Source: Saccharothrix syringae (lineage in GTDB: Bacteria > Actinomycetota > Actinomycetes > Mycobacteriales > Pseudonocardiaceae). From it: a stretch of DNA of 64,000 nucleotides. The stretch spans positions 10,354,001-10,418,000 of the forward strand of contig NZ_CP034550.1 in the NCBI RefSeq assembly GCF_009498035.1, written 5' to 3'. The translations under genes and the position numbers were made by a program. Below the pieces are notes generated by a model. That model did no database searches, had not been told where the DNA came from, and worked only from the letters and a program-made list of their open reading frames with translations. Every line of letters begins with the position of its first letter. Position 1 is the stretch's first letter. Shown piece by piece: positions 13,010-60,262 of the stretch.

Positions 13010-15715
13010 CTACGGCTCCGCCAGGCGGGCGCGGACCCGGTCCGCCGCCGCCGAGCCCTCCGGCAGCAGGGCCAGCGCCGCCGCCCAGCTCGCCCTGGCC
13101 CCGGTGACGTCGCCCTTGGTAGTCAACGCGCGGGCCAGGTTCTCCAGTACCGCGGCCTCGGTGGACTGGTCGCGCGCCTCCGCCGCGCGGGCGCGGGCCA
13201 GCCGGTACGCGGCCACCGCCTCGTCCACCCGCCCGGCGGCGGCCAGCGCGTTGCCGTGGTTGTCCAGCACCCGGCCCTCCACGACCAGGTCGCCCGAGCC
13301 CTCCACCAGCCGCAACGCCCTGCTGCTCGCCTCGACCGCCTCCTCCACCCGCCCGAGCCGGGCCAGCACGCCCGACAGCGTGTTCAGCGTGATCGCCTCG
13401 CCGTGCTGGTCGCCGACGGCCACCAGCAGGCGCCGCGACTCCTCCAGCATGTCGACCGCGGTGGCGTCCCGGCCCAACTTGAGGTGGCAGATGGCCAGCG
13501 CGTTGAGCGCCAGCCCCTCGCCACGCCGGTCGCCCGCGCGCCGGTGCACCTCCAGGGCCACGTGGTGGCTGCGGATCGCGTCCTCGGGCCGGTCGGCGTC
13601 GCTGTAGGTCATGGCCAGCGCCCGCGCGGTCAGCGTCAGCGCCCGCGGGTCGCCGACCTCCCGGGCCGCCCGGGCGGCGAGCTCCAGCGCGGGCACGGTC
13701 TCGGCGAACCGCTTGGTGAGGTCGAACAGGGACCACTGGGCGATCGGCAGCCGCCACGCGTGCTCGGCGTGCCCCGAGCGGGTCGCGTGCGACGTGGCCG
13801 CGCACAGGTTCGCCCGCTCGACCTCCCACCACTCCAGCGCCTGGTCGCGGTCGGCGAACCCGAGCGCCCGCTCGCGGGCCACGCCGGTGCTGACGTCGGG
13901 GCGGACGGACCGGACGGCCGCCGCGGCGTTGAGCGCGGTGTCGACGTAGAAGTCCAGCAGCCGGCGCAGGGCGGCGTGCCGGGTGGCCTCGTCCTCCTCC
14001 TCGGCGGCCAGGCCGGCGGCGTACTCGCGCAGCAGGTCGTGCAGCGCGAACCGGCCCGACCGCTCGGAGACCAGGCTCGCGGCGGCCAGCCCGCGCAGCA
14101 GCCGCTGCGCCTCGCGCACCTCGACGCCGAGCAGCGCGGCCGCGGCCGCGGTCGACACGTCGTCGCCGGGCACCAGGCCGAGCAGCCGGAACGCGGCCCG
14201 CGCCTCGGCGTCCAGGCCCACGTAGGACGAGTCGAACGCGGCGCGCAGCGCGAACTCCTCGTCGCCGATGGCCAGCGCCTCCAGCCGGTCCTCCCGCCGC
14301 AGCTCGGCCACGTAGCCGGCGAGGTCGGGCACGGGCCGGGAGGCCAGGTTCACCCCGGCGATGCGCAGCGCCAGGGGCCAGTGCGCGCAGGTCTCGGCCA
14401 GCGCGGCGGCCGCCTCGGGCGCGGCGTCGAGCACCGCGTCGCCGAGCACGCCGCGCAGCAGCGTCAGCGACTCGTCCCCGTGCAGCGGCTCGACGTCGAA
14501 CCGCCGGGCCCCGGACCCCCCGACCAGCCCCAGCAGGCAGTCCCGGGTGGTCATCACCGCCGCCGAACCCGGGTGGCCGGGCAGCAGCAGCTCCACCGCC
14601 TCGTCCCGGGGCACGTTGTCCAGCACCACCAGCACCCGGCGGCCGGCCAGCAGCGACCGGTACCGCGCCGCCTGCTCCTCCCGGTCGCCGGGCACGTCCT
14701 CGGGCGCCACGCCCAGGGCGCGCAGGAACCGCGGCAGCACCACCGACACGGTGACCGCGGACGACGGCGCGTAGGCGCGCAGGTCCGCGAACAGCTGGCC
14801 GTCGGGGAACCGGTCGCGCAGCAGGTGCGCCACGTGCACCGCCAGCGCGGTCTTGCCGATGCCCGGCGGGCCCGCCACCACCGCGCACGACGGGTGATCG
14901 CCCGTCCCGGCCAGCTCGGCCGCCAGCTCGGCCACCAGGTCGGCCCGCCCGGCGAAGTCGACCGGCGGCGGGAGCTGGCGCGGCACCACGGCGGGCGGGG
15001 CACCGGGCGGGGGCTGCACGCCCGCCAGCAGCCGGGCGTGCAGCTCGCGCAGGGCCGGCCCGGGCGCGATGCCCAGCTCGTCGGCCAGGTGCGCGCGCAC
15101 CGCCTCGTACACGGCCAGCGCCTCGGCCCACTGGTCGGCCGCCTGCAGCGCCCGCATCAACTGGGCCCAGAACCGCTCGTGCAGCGGGTGGCGGCGGGTC
15201 AGCGCGCGCAGCTCCGGCACCAGCTCCGCCGCCCGGCCCGCGGCCAGGTCCGCGTCGACGCGCCGCTCCAGCACGGCCAGCCGCTCCTCCAGCAGCGGCA
15301 CGACCTCCTCGCGGTGCAGCGAGTCCGACCGCACGTCCGCCAGCGGCTCGCCCCGCCACAGCTCCAGCGCCTCGGCGAACCGGCCCCGCGCGGCCAGCTC
15401 CCGGTACCGGTGCAGGTCCAGGCTGCCCGGCGGCACGTCGGCGACGTAGCCCTCCGCGGCCGTGCGCACCACGTTCGCCGGACCCAGCGCCTGCCGCAGC
15501 CGGGTCACCACCATGTGCAGCGTCGCCCTGGCGCGCGAGGCGTTCGGCGGCGCACCGTCCCACAACCGGTCCACCAGCCGGTCGGCGGGCACCACCTCGT
15601 TCGCGCGCAGCAGCAGCGACGCCAGCAGGACCCGGGCCCGGCCCGCGGGAATGGGCACGGGGCGGTTGTCCAACCGCACCTCAAGGGGCCCGAGGACGCA
15701 CAGCTCGACCGACAC
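13010..15715 (-). CDS. SARP/AfsR-type regulator with STAND ATPase and TPR repeats (copy 3)
   Basis: 901 residues. The frame stays open for 310 codons upstream, but homology to the other two copies begins at the GTG at 15715 (VSVELCVLGPLEV), which I take as the start. The domains are as in copies 1 and 2: winged helix, BTAD, NB-ARC (Walker A GPPGIGKT; the Asp-rich VLVVLDNVP segment is Walker B-like), TPR tail. This copy is the first of the three in transcription order and would head the cluster if they share a transcript. Confidence 0.9.
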   Translation of the reverse strand: MSVELCVLGPLEVRLDNRPVPIPAGRARVLLASLLLRANEVVPADRLVDRLWDGAPPNASRARATLHMVVTRLRQALGPANVVRTAAEGYVADVPPGSLDLHRYRELAARGRFAEALELWRGEPLADVRSDSLHREEVVPLLEERLAVLERRVDADLAAGRAAELVPELRALTRRHPLHERFWAQLMRALQAADQWAEALAVYEAVRAHLADELGIAPGPALRELHARLLAGVQPPPGAPPAVVPRQLPPPVDFAGRADLVAELAAELAGTGDHPSCAVVAGPPGIGKTALAVHVAHLLRDRFPDGQLFADLRAYAPSSAVTVSVVLPRFLRALGVAPEDVPGDREEQAARYRSLLAGRRVLVVLDNVPRDEAVELLLPGHPGSAAVMTTRDCLLGLVGGSGARRFDVEPLHGDESLTLLRGVLGDAVLDAAPEAAAALAETCAHWPLALRIAGVNLASRPVPDLAGYVAELRREDRLEALAIGDEEFALRAAFDSSYVGLDAEARAAFRLLGLVPGDDVSTAAAAALLGVEVREAQRLLRGLAAASLVSERSGRFALHDLLREYAAGLAAEEEDEATRHAALRRLLDFYVDTALNAAAAVRSVRPDVSTGVARERALGFADRDQALEWWEVERANLCAATSHATRSGHAEHAWRLPIAQWSLFDLTKRFAETVPALELAARAAREVGDPRALTLTARALAMTYSDADRPEDAIRSHHVALEVHRRAGDRRGEGLALNALAICHLKLGRDATAVDMLEESRRLLVAVGDQHGEAITLNTLSGVLARLGRVEEAVEASSRALRLVEGSGDLVVEGRVLDNHGNALAAAGRVDEAVAAYRLARARAAEARDQSTEAAVLENLARALTTKGDVTGARASWAAALALLPEGSAAADRVRARLAEP

Positions 15716-41812: not shown

Positions 41813-42418
41813 TCACGGCTTGGACACGGCGAGGGCGCCGGCCATGCCGAGGAGGACGGCGCCGGTGGCCTTGTCGAGGCGGGCCCTCGCCCGCCGGGTC
41901 AGGCCGGCCTTGCGGATGCCCGCTCCCACGGCCACGTAGGCGGTGCCGGCCAGCAGTTCGGCGGCCAGGTAGACGGCGCCCAGGACGGCCAGTTGGAGGG
42001 GGACGGGGGCCCTGGCGGGGTCCACGAACTGGGGGACGAAGGCGGTGAAGATCAGGATCGCCTTGGGGTTGGAGATCGCCACCAGGAACTCCTTGCGGCG
42101 CGGGTTGGCGCTGTGAGCTGGGGTTTTGGTGGTGGCTTCGGTCGTTCTGGCGGTGAGGACGCGGAGGGCCAGGTAGGCGAGGTAGGCGACGCCCGCCCAC
42201 TTGATGATCGTCAGGGCGAGGTGGCTGGCGGCCAGGACCGGGCCGAGTCCGGCGACTACCGCGACGACCATGATGGCGAAGGCGGCCAGGCGGCCCAGGA
42301 GGGCCGTGGCGGCTTTGAGCGGGCCGTGGTGGACGGCGTGGTGCATGCCCAGGAGGTTGTTCGCCCCCGGGGTCAGGGCCACCAGGACCGAGGCCCCGAA
42401 GAAGACGGCTAGCCACAT
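41813..42418 (-). CDS. LysE/RhtB-family exporter
   Basis: 201 residues with six predicted membrane helices (LAVFFGASVLVALTPGANNLL; AAFAIMVVAVVAGLGPVL; WAGVAYLAYLALRVL; AVLGAVYLAAELLAGTAYV; the last at the end). The N-terminal TPGAN and ISNPKAIL motifs mark the LysE/RhtB superfamily, which exports amino acids or similar small molecules. The substrate cannot be told from sequence. It is inserted between rplO and secY, breaking the usual spc order. Its upstream region is repeat-rich. Confidence 0.9.
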   Translation of the reverse strand: MWLAVFFGASVLVALTPGANNLLGMHHAVHHGPLKAATALLGRLAAFAIMVVAVVAGLGPVLAASHLALTIIKWAGVAYLAYLALRVLTARTTEATTKTPAHSANPRRKEFLVAISNPKAILIFTAFVPQFVDPARAPVPLQLAVLGAVYLAAELLAGTAYVAVGAGIRKAGLTRRARARLDKATGAVLLGMAGALAVSKP

Positions 42419-42507
42419 GCCTGGGACGCTAGTTGGGGCCGGTTGGGGGGTGAAGCGGATTTACGCCCTCCGCGAACGGGTCTCGTTTCGGGCCGGCCGG
42501 TAATAGT

Positions 42508-42598
42508 TAACGCTCTCGGGGGTTCACGGGATCTCTCGGTTGACGCTCTCGGGGGGTTCACGGGCTTCCGGTTGGCCGCATCGGGGTTCACGGGCGGG
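42508..42598. repeat. Three imperfect 32-33 bp direct repeats
   Basis: Units start at 42508, 42541 and 42573. The shared core is CTCTCGGGGGTTCACGGG (third copy GCATCGGGGTTCACGGG). They lie 90 bases upstream of the LysE-type start and could be regulatory. Confidence 0.7.
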
Positions 42599-42645
42599 CG
42601 CTCGCCGCTGGGCAGGCCGCCGGGGGGAAAAGCGGGCTCGTGCCC

Positions 42646-42748
42646 TCCCGCATGGCCTGCCGGAGGCAACCACCCTTGTCAAGGGCCCCGCGAAAAGCGT
42701 GCGGGACCCTTGACAAGCGCGGTAGGGCTGCGCCCAGGCCATACGGGA
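42646..42748. repeat. 103-bp nested inverted-repeat element
   Basis: Outer arms TCCCGCATGGCCTG (42646-42659) and CAGGCCATACGGGA (42735-42748), one mismatch. Inner arms CTTGTCAAGGGCCCCGC (42675-42691) and GCGGGACCCTTGACAAG (42701-42717), one mismatch, 9-base loop. It has no coding content. It could be a MITE/REP-like element or a structured RNA. Confidence 0.75.
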
Positions 42749-42811
42749 GACCACGAGCAACCCCCCAGTGAACGAACACGCCACTTCCTCGCGTGGTCAC
42801 GCTCCCACCGG

Positions 42812-43097
42812 CGAGTCATGCATCGAGGTCGCGCGAGTCATGCGTTGGGTCCGGGCGAGTCATGCGTTGGGGCCGGGCGAGTCATGCGTTGGGCACCGGC
42901 GTGTCATGCGTTGAAGCCGGGCGTGTCATGCGCTCAGAGCGCGCGAGTCGAACGTTCGGACCCGTCGTGTCGAACGTTCCGGGCCCCCGAGTTCTACGTT
43001 CAGCACCGGCGTGTCCTCCACTCAGGCACCGCGTGTCCTCCACTCAGGCACCGCGTGTCCTCCGGTCCGGCACCGCGAGTCCTCCGCTCCGGCACGT
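42812..43097. repeat. Array A: 13 degenerate tandem units of exactly 22 bp
   Basis: Units start at 42812 and every 22 bases to 43076. Each begins CGWGTC (one CGAGTT), has a variable 3-base word (ATG, GAA, CTC, CTA), then an invariant C, then mostly xTTCAG or xCTCAG and CACCG-like ends. Units 10 and 11 are identical. 22 is not a multiple of 3 and no frame spans it, so it is non-coding. The ATG-word units come first, then GAA, then CTC. There are no spacers, so it is not CRISPR. Confidence 0.9.
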
Positions 43098-43108
43098 CCC
43101 GAACGCGA

Positions 43109-43140
43109 AACGGCCCCCGGAGCGGGCTCCGGGGGCCGTT
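43109..43140 (-). terminator. Terminator of the spc-operon segment (after rplO)
   Basis: A 15-bp stem (43109-43123 with 43126-43140) lies 20 bases after the rplO stop. Array A starts 11 bases beyond it. Confidence 0.8.
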
Positions 43141-43159
43141 CGGTGGTGCTACCGCCGTG

Positions 43160-43603
43160 TCAGAGCTCGGCGGTGGTGCCGCCGGCGGCGGCGATCTTCT
43201 CGACCGCGCTGCCGGAGAACTTGTTGGCCACGACGTCGAGCTTGACGCCGTTCAGGTCGCCGTTGCCGAGGACCTTGACCGGCTGGTTCTTGCGCACCAG
43301 GCCGGCGTTCACCAGGGCGTCCACGTCCACCCGGCCACCTTCGGGGAAGAGGCGGGCGAGGTCGCCCACGTTCACCACCTGGTACTCGGTGCGGAACGGG
43401 TTGCGGAAGCCCTTCAGCTTCGGCAGGCGCATGTGCAGCGGCATCTGGCCGCCCTCGAAGCGCGGGGAGACGTTCTTCCGCGCGCCCGTGCCCTTCGTGC
43501 CTCGGCCGGCCGTCTTGCCCTTGGAGCCCTCACCGCGACCCACGCGGGTCTTCGCGGTCTTGGCGCCCGGGGCCGGACGAAGGTCGTGGATCTTGATGGT
43601 CAC
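43160..43603 (-). CDS. rplO: 50S ribosomal protein L15
   Basis: 147 residues: [38 protein letters not shown] start and the [21 protein letters not shown] segment. It is coupled to rpmD (stop/start overlap of 4 bases). Usually secY follows at once; here a terminator and the repeat-rich gap follow. Confidence 0.97.
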
Positions 43604-60130: not shown

Positions 60131-60262
60131 CGTGTCCTCCACTCGGACACCGCGTGTCCTCCACTCAGGCCGGGCGTGTCATGCCTTCAGCACCCGCGAG
60201 TCGAACCTCCAGCACCCTCGTGTCGAACGTTCAGACCCCCCGAGTTCGACGTTCGCGGCGAA
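60131..60262. repeat. Array B: 6 degenerate tandem units of exactly 22 bp
   Basis: Same family as array A: units start at 60131, 60153, 60175, 60197, 60219 and 60241, each with CGWGTC (last CGAGTT), a variable word (CTC, CTC, ATG, GAA, GAA, CGA) and the invariant C. The first unit differs by only two bases from units 10-11 of array A. The last unit decays at its end. The array begins 6 bases after the toxin-like stop. Confidence 0.88.

Follow-up and report, generated by a model that had tools for sequence, protein, structure and literature searches.

The window, a stretch of 64,000 nucleotides of the Saccharothrix syringae chromosome (a single contig of 10.93 Mb), contains an array of 22-bp direct repeats in the gap between two genes that point in the same direction. 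The end of the first gene, which we take to be rplO (ribosomal protein L15), faces the array, and the next gene downstream presumably encodes a LysE-like protein. These names, as well as metB, greA, dnaA, BI-1, thiolase and DUF2277, are our own readings of the sequences, and the genes were called with our own hexamer model and not taken from an annotation. The features are listed in Table 1.

Table 1. Features of the array, its surroundings and a second array in the window
Feature	Position	Strand	Basis
LysE-like gene, next downstream of rplO, same strand	41813..42418	-	own gene calls; name by our reading
22-bp array, 13 units, spacer-free	42812..43097	+	sequence reading, unit pattern matching
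Six units with the word ATG (CGWGTCATGC)	42812..42943	+	sequence reading, unit pattern matching
GAA module of a CGAGTCGAAC unit followed by a CGTGTCGAAC unit	42944..42987	+	sequence reading; order counted in 41 sampled arrays
Closing-type unit CGAGTTCTAC after the GAA pair	42988..43009	+	sequence reading; 41 sampled arrays
Four units with the word CTC (CGWGTCCTCC)	43010..43097	+	sequence reading, unit pattern matching
GC-rich hairpin between array and ribosomal-protein gene, read as that gene's terminator	43109..43140		sequence reading and congener comparison
rplO (L15) gene, end facing the array	43160..43603	-	own gene calls; name by our reading
Second array in the window, six units	60131..60262	+	pattern matching in the window

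An earlier note on this DNA had described thirteen degenerate units with an exact 22-bp period, and the unit starts, at 42812 and at every 22 bp from there, are all in phase, with the array ending at 43097. The first six bases and base 10, which the note called near-invariant, follow CGWGTCNNNC in 12 of the 13 units; the ninth unit (CGAGTTCTAC) deviates at base 6. Bases 7-9, here called the word of a unit, are limited to the four words that had been named: ATG in six units, CTC in four, GAA in two and CTA in one, the ninth. TCAG at bases 13-16 is present, but in only 4 of the 13 units, and to call it frequent was generous. The units follow each other head to tail with no spacers, as had been noted, and our gene calls show no coding gene over the array. 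A 22-bp period does not preserve a reading frame. The hairpin starts 11 bp past the array, at the distance given in the note, and hairpins orthologous to it precede arrays or empty sites in congeners. A search of region 42400-43200 against Rfam, up to an E value of 1, gave no match to the array; the sole match, RF02919 (15.5 bits, gathering threshold 95.9), covers a palindrome at 42651-42751.

Other repeats are present in these gaps. The palindrome at 42651-42751 is a diverged copy of a second dispersed element, about 150 bp in length and with long inverted ends. Near-identical copies of this element (TCGATTTGACATGGGG... to ...CCCATGTCAAATCG) directly precede several arrays, and it is also found before the arrays at positions 14483, 273535 and 332624 of the S. 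syringae genome and at L105 5694 and L112 18342. A repeat of 31-33 bp (GTTGACGCTCTCGGGGGTTCACGGG...) occurs in about three imperfect copies at 42506-42594, upstream of the LysE-like gene. The gaps of the array-free congeners G009, G011 and G017 that correspond to array sites contain a different palindrome (GTGTCATCC...GGATGACAC or a relative of it).

The array is not unique. The second array in the window starts about 6 bp after a stop codon and consists of units with the words CTC, CTC, ATG, GAA and GAA, closed by a CGAGTTCGAC unit. Further members are distributed along the chromosome.

Dispersed arrays at gene ends

A pattern of two adjacent units has 670 matches (352 + 318) in the S. syringae genome and the reversed pattern has three (1 + 2). 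In 1.02 Mb sampled from this genome there are 41 arrays with 222 units; the unit patterns vary between counts (CGWGTC, YGWGTC or looser) and the array totals vary accordingly. In 178 units, bases 1, 2, 4, 5 and 10 carry 1.75-1.85 bits of information, base 14 carries 1.47 and base 6 carries 1.29 bits, compared to 0.40-0.55 bits at bases 7-9 and 0.44-0.96 bits at most of bases 15-22. Base 3 is A or T. The order of units follows a simple grammar in the 41 sampled arrays. After a GAA unit that has A at base 3, the next unit is of the GAA type with T at this base in 24 instances. The T-type GAA unit is in turn succeeded by the closing unit CGAGTT 24 times, and the closing unit is the last one in 23 of the arrays. 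Many arrays are pairs that face each other around a short centre or hairpin.

In 624 kb of the S. syringae genome the cores are 22 bp apart in 111 cases and 44 bp apart in eight, and spacings of 20, 21, 23 and 24 bp do not occur. The corresponding counts are 181 at 22 bp, none at 21 and one each at 23 and 24 in congeners, and 92 at 22 bp and one each at 20 and 21 in Actinophytocola. At 30 loci from other genera of the bacterial family, 22 bp was found 104 times, 21 bp eight times and 23 bp once. The period, the loss of which in relatives the earlier note had named as evidence against its reading, is retained in the congeners and mostly in the other genera. Cores held in a constant 22-bp phase are what clustered binding sites would be expected to display.

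The arrays are concentrated between convergent genes. An array is present in 14 of 67 convergent gaps of S. syringae compared to 12 of 392 other gaps (p 1.3e-6). The same comparison gives 27 of 44 and 20 of 156 in Saccharothrix congeners (p 4.2e-10), 11 of 16 and 10 of 74 in Actinophytocola (p 2e-5), and 5 of 7 and 2 of 22 in other genera (p 0.0032), these three gap sets having been chosen because they contain an array. Divergent gaps with an array number 4 of 215 in all four samples together; S. syringae has one short-armed two-arm element in such a gap (locus L111).

The distance to the stop codon is short. Of 223 distinct arrays, cleared of repeats from overlapping loci, 165 have the end of a same-strand gene within 300 bp on the 5' side, and 100 of these 165 start no more than 20 bp past the stop codon, most commonly at 5 bp (23 arrays) or 4 bp (14 arrays). 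Stop codons lie within 20 bp of both arms in 20, of one arm in 22 and of neither in 8 of 50 two-arm elements, a set that may include repeats from overlapping loci. The edges of single-arm arrays (n = 97) are within 20 bp of a stop codon in 34 of 77 cases on the 5' side and 38 of 71 on the 3' side, and within 20 bp of a start codon in 2 of 20 and 0 of 26 cases, respectively. Strand preference is weak: arrays in tandem gaps are sense in 29 cases and antisense in 22, and a strict sense orientation to the upstream gene is not borne out by these counts. Gene ends set the position of an array more than strand does, which speaks for an element acting on DNA. The earlier note had also asked whether the units cluster beside terminators. 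Five of 41 arrays do have a perfect stem of at least 8 bp no more than 70 bp away (0.5% in shuffled flanks), and a separate hairpin lies beside the array in several orthologous gaps, but stop codons and convergent gene pairs are the stronger rule.

The gap between the genes read as BI-1 and thiolase has, in several congeners (e.g. L142 and L143), a short convergent open frame between the array and thiolase. This frame is often missed by the gene caller, and the closing unit is near its stop.

A dnaA-like gene begins at base 45 of the S. syringae contig. The chromosome half nearest to it holds 66 of 70 GAA-GAA-closing triples (p 1.7e-15), and convergent gaps have arrays in 14 of 53 cases near dnaA and in 0 of 14 far from it. 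With origins interpolated from two genes, 39 of 193 places in G015 and 10 of 28 in G022 are in the far half, the bias being weak in G022 (18 of 28 near); G003, with 22 of its 86 places listed, was left out of this comparison. The figures from S. syringae and G015 could suggest that the arrays serve as marks by which a nucleoid or segregation protein distinguishes the origin-proximal part of the chromosome, a role that SlmA, Noc and MatP sites play in other bacteria. We consider such an organiser very unlikely. The weak bias in G022 led us to reject a purely origin-proximal rule, and sister species exist that have no arrays. Furthermore, essential and core genes cluster near the origin in such chromosomes, as described in PMC4210621, so that the same picture, a bias of arrays toward dnaA, may follow from the genes.

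Mirrored arms

The two arms of an element tend to carry the same words. The comparison covered 38 two-arm elements. In the 32 that belong to the genus, pooled, word agreement between arms is 0.827 compared to 0.366 when shuffled (0 of 2000). Individually, agreement is 0.758 vs 0.393 in G018 (0 of 2000), 0.833 vs 0.496 in G015 (10 of 2000) and 0.875 vs 0.594 in S. syringae, where it is not significant (421 of 2000). For base 3 and for the tails, the agreement between arms in G018 does not exceed that of shuffles (459 and 1184 of 2000, respectively). Nor do the arms of one element pair better with each other than with foreign arms of the same words (-66.3 vs -73.4 in G018 and -70.6 vs -71.4 in G015), and co-evolution of arms at individual loci was rejected on this result. 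The words in G018 agree but base 3, tails and pairing do not; thus the arms of one element share their type and are not tuned to each other.

Two-arm elements fold as long hairpins, for example one of 180 bases at -136.2 kcal/mol. Such hairpins, in the 3' ends of transcripts, might serve as bidirectional terminators or stabilisers, and the arrays would then be RNA elements. The adjacency of the arms to stop codons and the agreement of words in G018 and G015 are consistent with this explanation, which is nevertheless unlikely. It would not account for arms that pair as well with foreign partners, for the unmatched base 3 and tails in G018 and the insignificant word match in S. syringae, or for the presence of arrays in both orientations relative to transcription. 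In addition, the folds of 30 single arrays are no more stable than those of shuffled sequences (mean z of -0.32 for the sense and 0.10 for the antisense strand, with z below -2 in 3 sense and 2 antisense cases). These values also rule out a self-folding unit of the REP type, and the compact hairpin followed by a U-run of an intrinsic terminator is not seen in single arms.

No clear target duplication was found at the edges of 46 two-arm elements. Direct identity is within about 1.5 sd of shuffles at lengths of 3-9 bp, e.g. 0.396 vs 0.377 (sd 0.013) at 5 bp and 0.249 vs 0.232 (sd 0.012) at 9 bp. The elements are not clear insertions, since the duplication expected at the edges of a MITE or an insertion-sequence remnant was not seen. 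Neither a coding gene nor a transposon end, the two origins that the earlier note listed as contrary to its reading, was seen.

Spread, shared sites and words

The genus comprises 25 genomes in our set, 15 with 31 to 702 matches to the two-unit pattern and 10 with five or fewer; the absence of arrays from these 10 genomes means that the system is dispensable. Among 390 genomes of the bacterial family, scattered genomes of other genera have tens to hundreds of such matches. The congeners are Saccharothrix, which fits the Pseudonocardiales named in the earlier note. All of 30 genomes picked for high counts contain three-unit matches, and matches to the control pattern are few or absent in them. 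The genera among the matches listed (80 of 85 stretches) include Saccharothrix, Actinophytocola, Amycolatopsis, Kutzneria, Kibdelosporangium, Lentzea and Labedaea. In a draw of 393 further genomes from the class, 391 lack the three-unit match; the remaining two have one match and six matches, the six being of another make. A genome of the class-level draw that belongs to another family (G744) has 22-bp repeats (CGAGTCGCCC...) with linkers unlike those of the present arrays.

The expansions are patchy within the family. Such a distribution would be expected of a selfish or passive interspersed repeat, the units and whole arms of which are copied or converted from one locus to another and multiplied by tandem duplication, gene ends being the places where they survive without harm. 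This explanation is possible but doubtful, and several findings speak against it. Mobile DNA usually accumulates in the chromosome half far from dnaA, which the S. syringae arrays avoid (4 of 70), and the 46 elements have no clear target duplication. Among 2.9 million viral contigs, three matching stretches were found on two contigs, and carriage by phages was rejected. The Y1 (RAYT) transposase, PF01797, is present in 63 of the 390 genomes of the family, some of them array-bearing (G013, G015, G019, G020 and G233 among others). It is absent from S. syringae and from G001, G005, G018, G080, G082, G104, G231, G243, G297, G301, G303, G342 and G399. A RAYT/REPIN origin was rejected because the transposase is missing from S. 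syringae and many of the array-rich genomes among the 390 searched.

Arrays recur in the same gaps of congeners. Nine sites are common to at least two species, with 51 site-by-species cases in total, and orientation at three single-arm sites is, in our reading, the same in all 16 species-by-site cases (8 of 8, 4 of 4 and 4 of 4). This sharing of sites and orientation also argues against a selfish repeat. In a tree of four proteins, onto which site presence was entered from our reading of orthologous stretches, most lineages have arrays and one clade of five species, with G009, G011, G016 and G017 in it, has none. The sites turn over, as a selfish repeat would: the greA site has arrays in four species and the rplO site in five, one of these being a suspect contig. 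Two species, G008 and G015, have gained about 66 bp between the hairpin and a conserved downstream string.

Two further observations concern rplO. Genome G010 has two copies of the gene, one of which, on the 20-kb contig C30 (L034), is 97% identical to the window's protein. The contig bears an array and appears to be contamination by a closely related organism; G010 contributes no within-species pair to the word-similarity test below. In G023 (L049) the region downstream of rplO has several copies of a perfect 13-bp tandem repeat (CGGCCGCGGGGGA) that is unrelated to the 22-bp units.

At the nine shared sites the words track the species and not the site. Word likeness is 0.795 within species between sites and 0.383 within a site between species, with 0.395 in shuffles, 0 of 5000 of which were as high. 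Nearly all words are CAA in G020 and CTA in G003, G008, G013 and G021; those of S. syringae are CTC, GAA and ATG. That every genome has its own dominant unit is what the selfish repeat would predict, each genome having been refilled from a few recent sources. The bases outside the word are informative in this respect. Units with the word CTA are species-specific at positions 1-3 (0.840 vs 0.672, 0 of 2000) and 20-22 (0.614 vs 0.551, 0 of 2000), slightly so at positions 11-14 (74 of 2000), and not at positions 15-19 (0.631 vs 0.633, 1050 of 2000). In GAA units the values are 1 of 2000 for positions 1-3, 23 of 2000 for 20-22 and 387 of 2000 for 15-19. Copying of whole units should mark positions 15-19 like the rest, and their unmarked state in CTA and GAA units rather resembles the pattern of a recognised stretch that runs from base 20 through about base 10.

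Homogenisation of units is nevertheless detectable, as a selfish repeat requires. The whole tail is weakly species-specific (13 of 2000 in CTA units, 8 in GAA units and 0 with all words), as are positions 15-19 when all words are pooled (22 of 2000), and copying can explain both. Adjacent tails in Actinophytocola are 0.884 alike compared to 0.759 between arrays, a sign of tandem duplication. One 36-base end piece recurs repeatedly in G015 among the first 100 of its 193 places. Selection for recognition and copying of units may both act, and the linker pattern is equally compatible with selection on DNA or on RNA.

Candidate factor and known systems

The explanation that we favour, tentatively and at slightly less than an even chance, is that the array belongs to a set of dispersed gene-end platforms, i.e. 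clustered, phased sites of a trans-acting, sequence-specific DNA-binding factor. Judged from sequence comparison, the species-wide change of core and word fits co-evolution with such a factor better than copying of whole units. The factor would read approximately bases 20-22 of one unit through bases 1-10, perhaps 14, of the next, with bases 15-19 as a linker, and the 22-bp period would place these recognition stretches on one face of the DNA. A cooperative protein with all cores on one DNA face had been proposed in the earlier note. The strict phase, conserved core, weak orientation and species-specific core and word agree with that proposal, but other genera are less strict (21 bp in the eight cases mentioned), and we infer the factor, its cooperative binding and its function. 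The factor would probably act on DNA where transcription units end, in most cases in convergent gaps, and the arrays might, for example, block colliding polymerases, serve as insulators or absorb supercoils. The presence of several words in one genome, ATG, GAA and CTC in S. syringae, counts against a single factor, and would require several factors or a loose reading of bases 7-9.

More speculatively, and with the odds against it, a DNA-binding system, perhaps of paralogous factors with one word each, might have co-evolved with the hundreds of phased arrays. A shift in the specificity of a factor would then change the word and flanking core in all arrays of a genome, and the linkers would drift freely. 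In the core of the chromosome, the arrays would physically separate convergent transcription units. In its pattern, such a shift would be a bacterial counterpart of PRDM9, the sites of which change fast. The family records genome-wide, base-by-base changes of words at inherited sites. It bears on the role of interspersed repeats between convergent genes and, in the same system, on whether a bacterial DNA-binding factor can shift its specificity simultaneously at hundreds of sites. Natural controls are provided by species that have or lack arrays, or that differ in their words.

The interspersed repeats known from bacterial gene ends are palindromic and are either propagated by Y1 transposases or have no known use. 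The arrays have a distinct build, with phased direct repeats, mirrored arms, a closing unit and anchoring at stop codons, and a search of the open-licence PMC literature found no comparable gene-end repeat family described. They resemble CRISPR arrays in having direct repeats at a fixed step and, sometimes, a deviating last repeat. The repeat, however, fills the entire period, and a CRISPR array is ruled out by units that are head to tail without spacers. The STRR sequences of cyanobacteria are dispersed short tandem arrays between genes and, like the present family, are limited to one bacterial group, but their units are heptamers and not 22 bp long. We know of no mirrored arms, stop-codon anchoring or words in STRR. 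Transposon ends of the Mu and Tn7 type contain transposase sites of about 22 bp that are repeated, and inverted at the two ends, as the units are in the two arms. Unlike these, the arrays do not enclose a cargo gene, and single-arm arrays are common; compared by the trait of target duplication alone, Tn7/Mu-like ends are disfavoured.

Sites of BldC are direct repeats of AATTXXXX(C) at promoters, according to PMC5859096, whereas the arrays are GC-rich, have a 22-bp step and lie at gene ends; the unit logo does not contain the BldC consensus given there. The arrays also resemble REP/BIME, of which PMC3733652 describes the GTAG and CGTC families. Their REP units are palindromes of 20-40 bp, the GTAG type being tied to Y1 (RAYT) genes. 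As with the arrays, hundreds of short extragenic copies form species-specific families, lie downstream of coding regions between convergent or same-direction genes, and often have units paired in opposite orientation (PMC3733652). The arrays conform to the REP/BIME location, being rare in divergent gaps. They differ in being direct repeats of a unit that is not self-complementary by folding, and S. syringae has no Y1 match. The unit logo begins with CGWGTC and lacks the terminal GTAG or CGTC tag defined in PMC3733652. The arrays thus make up a new interspersed family of repeats at gene ends, which is analogous to REP/BIME without belonging to it.
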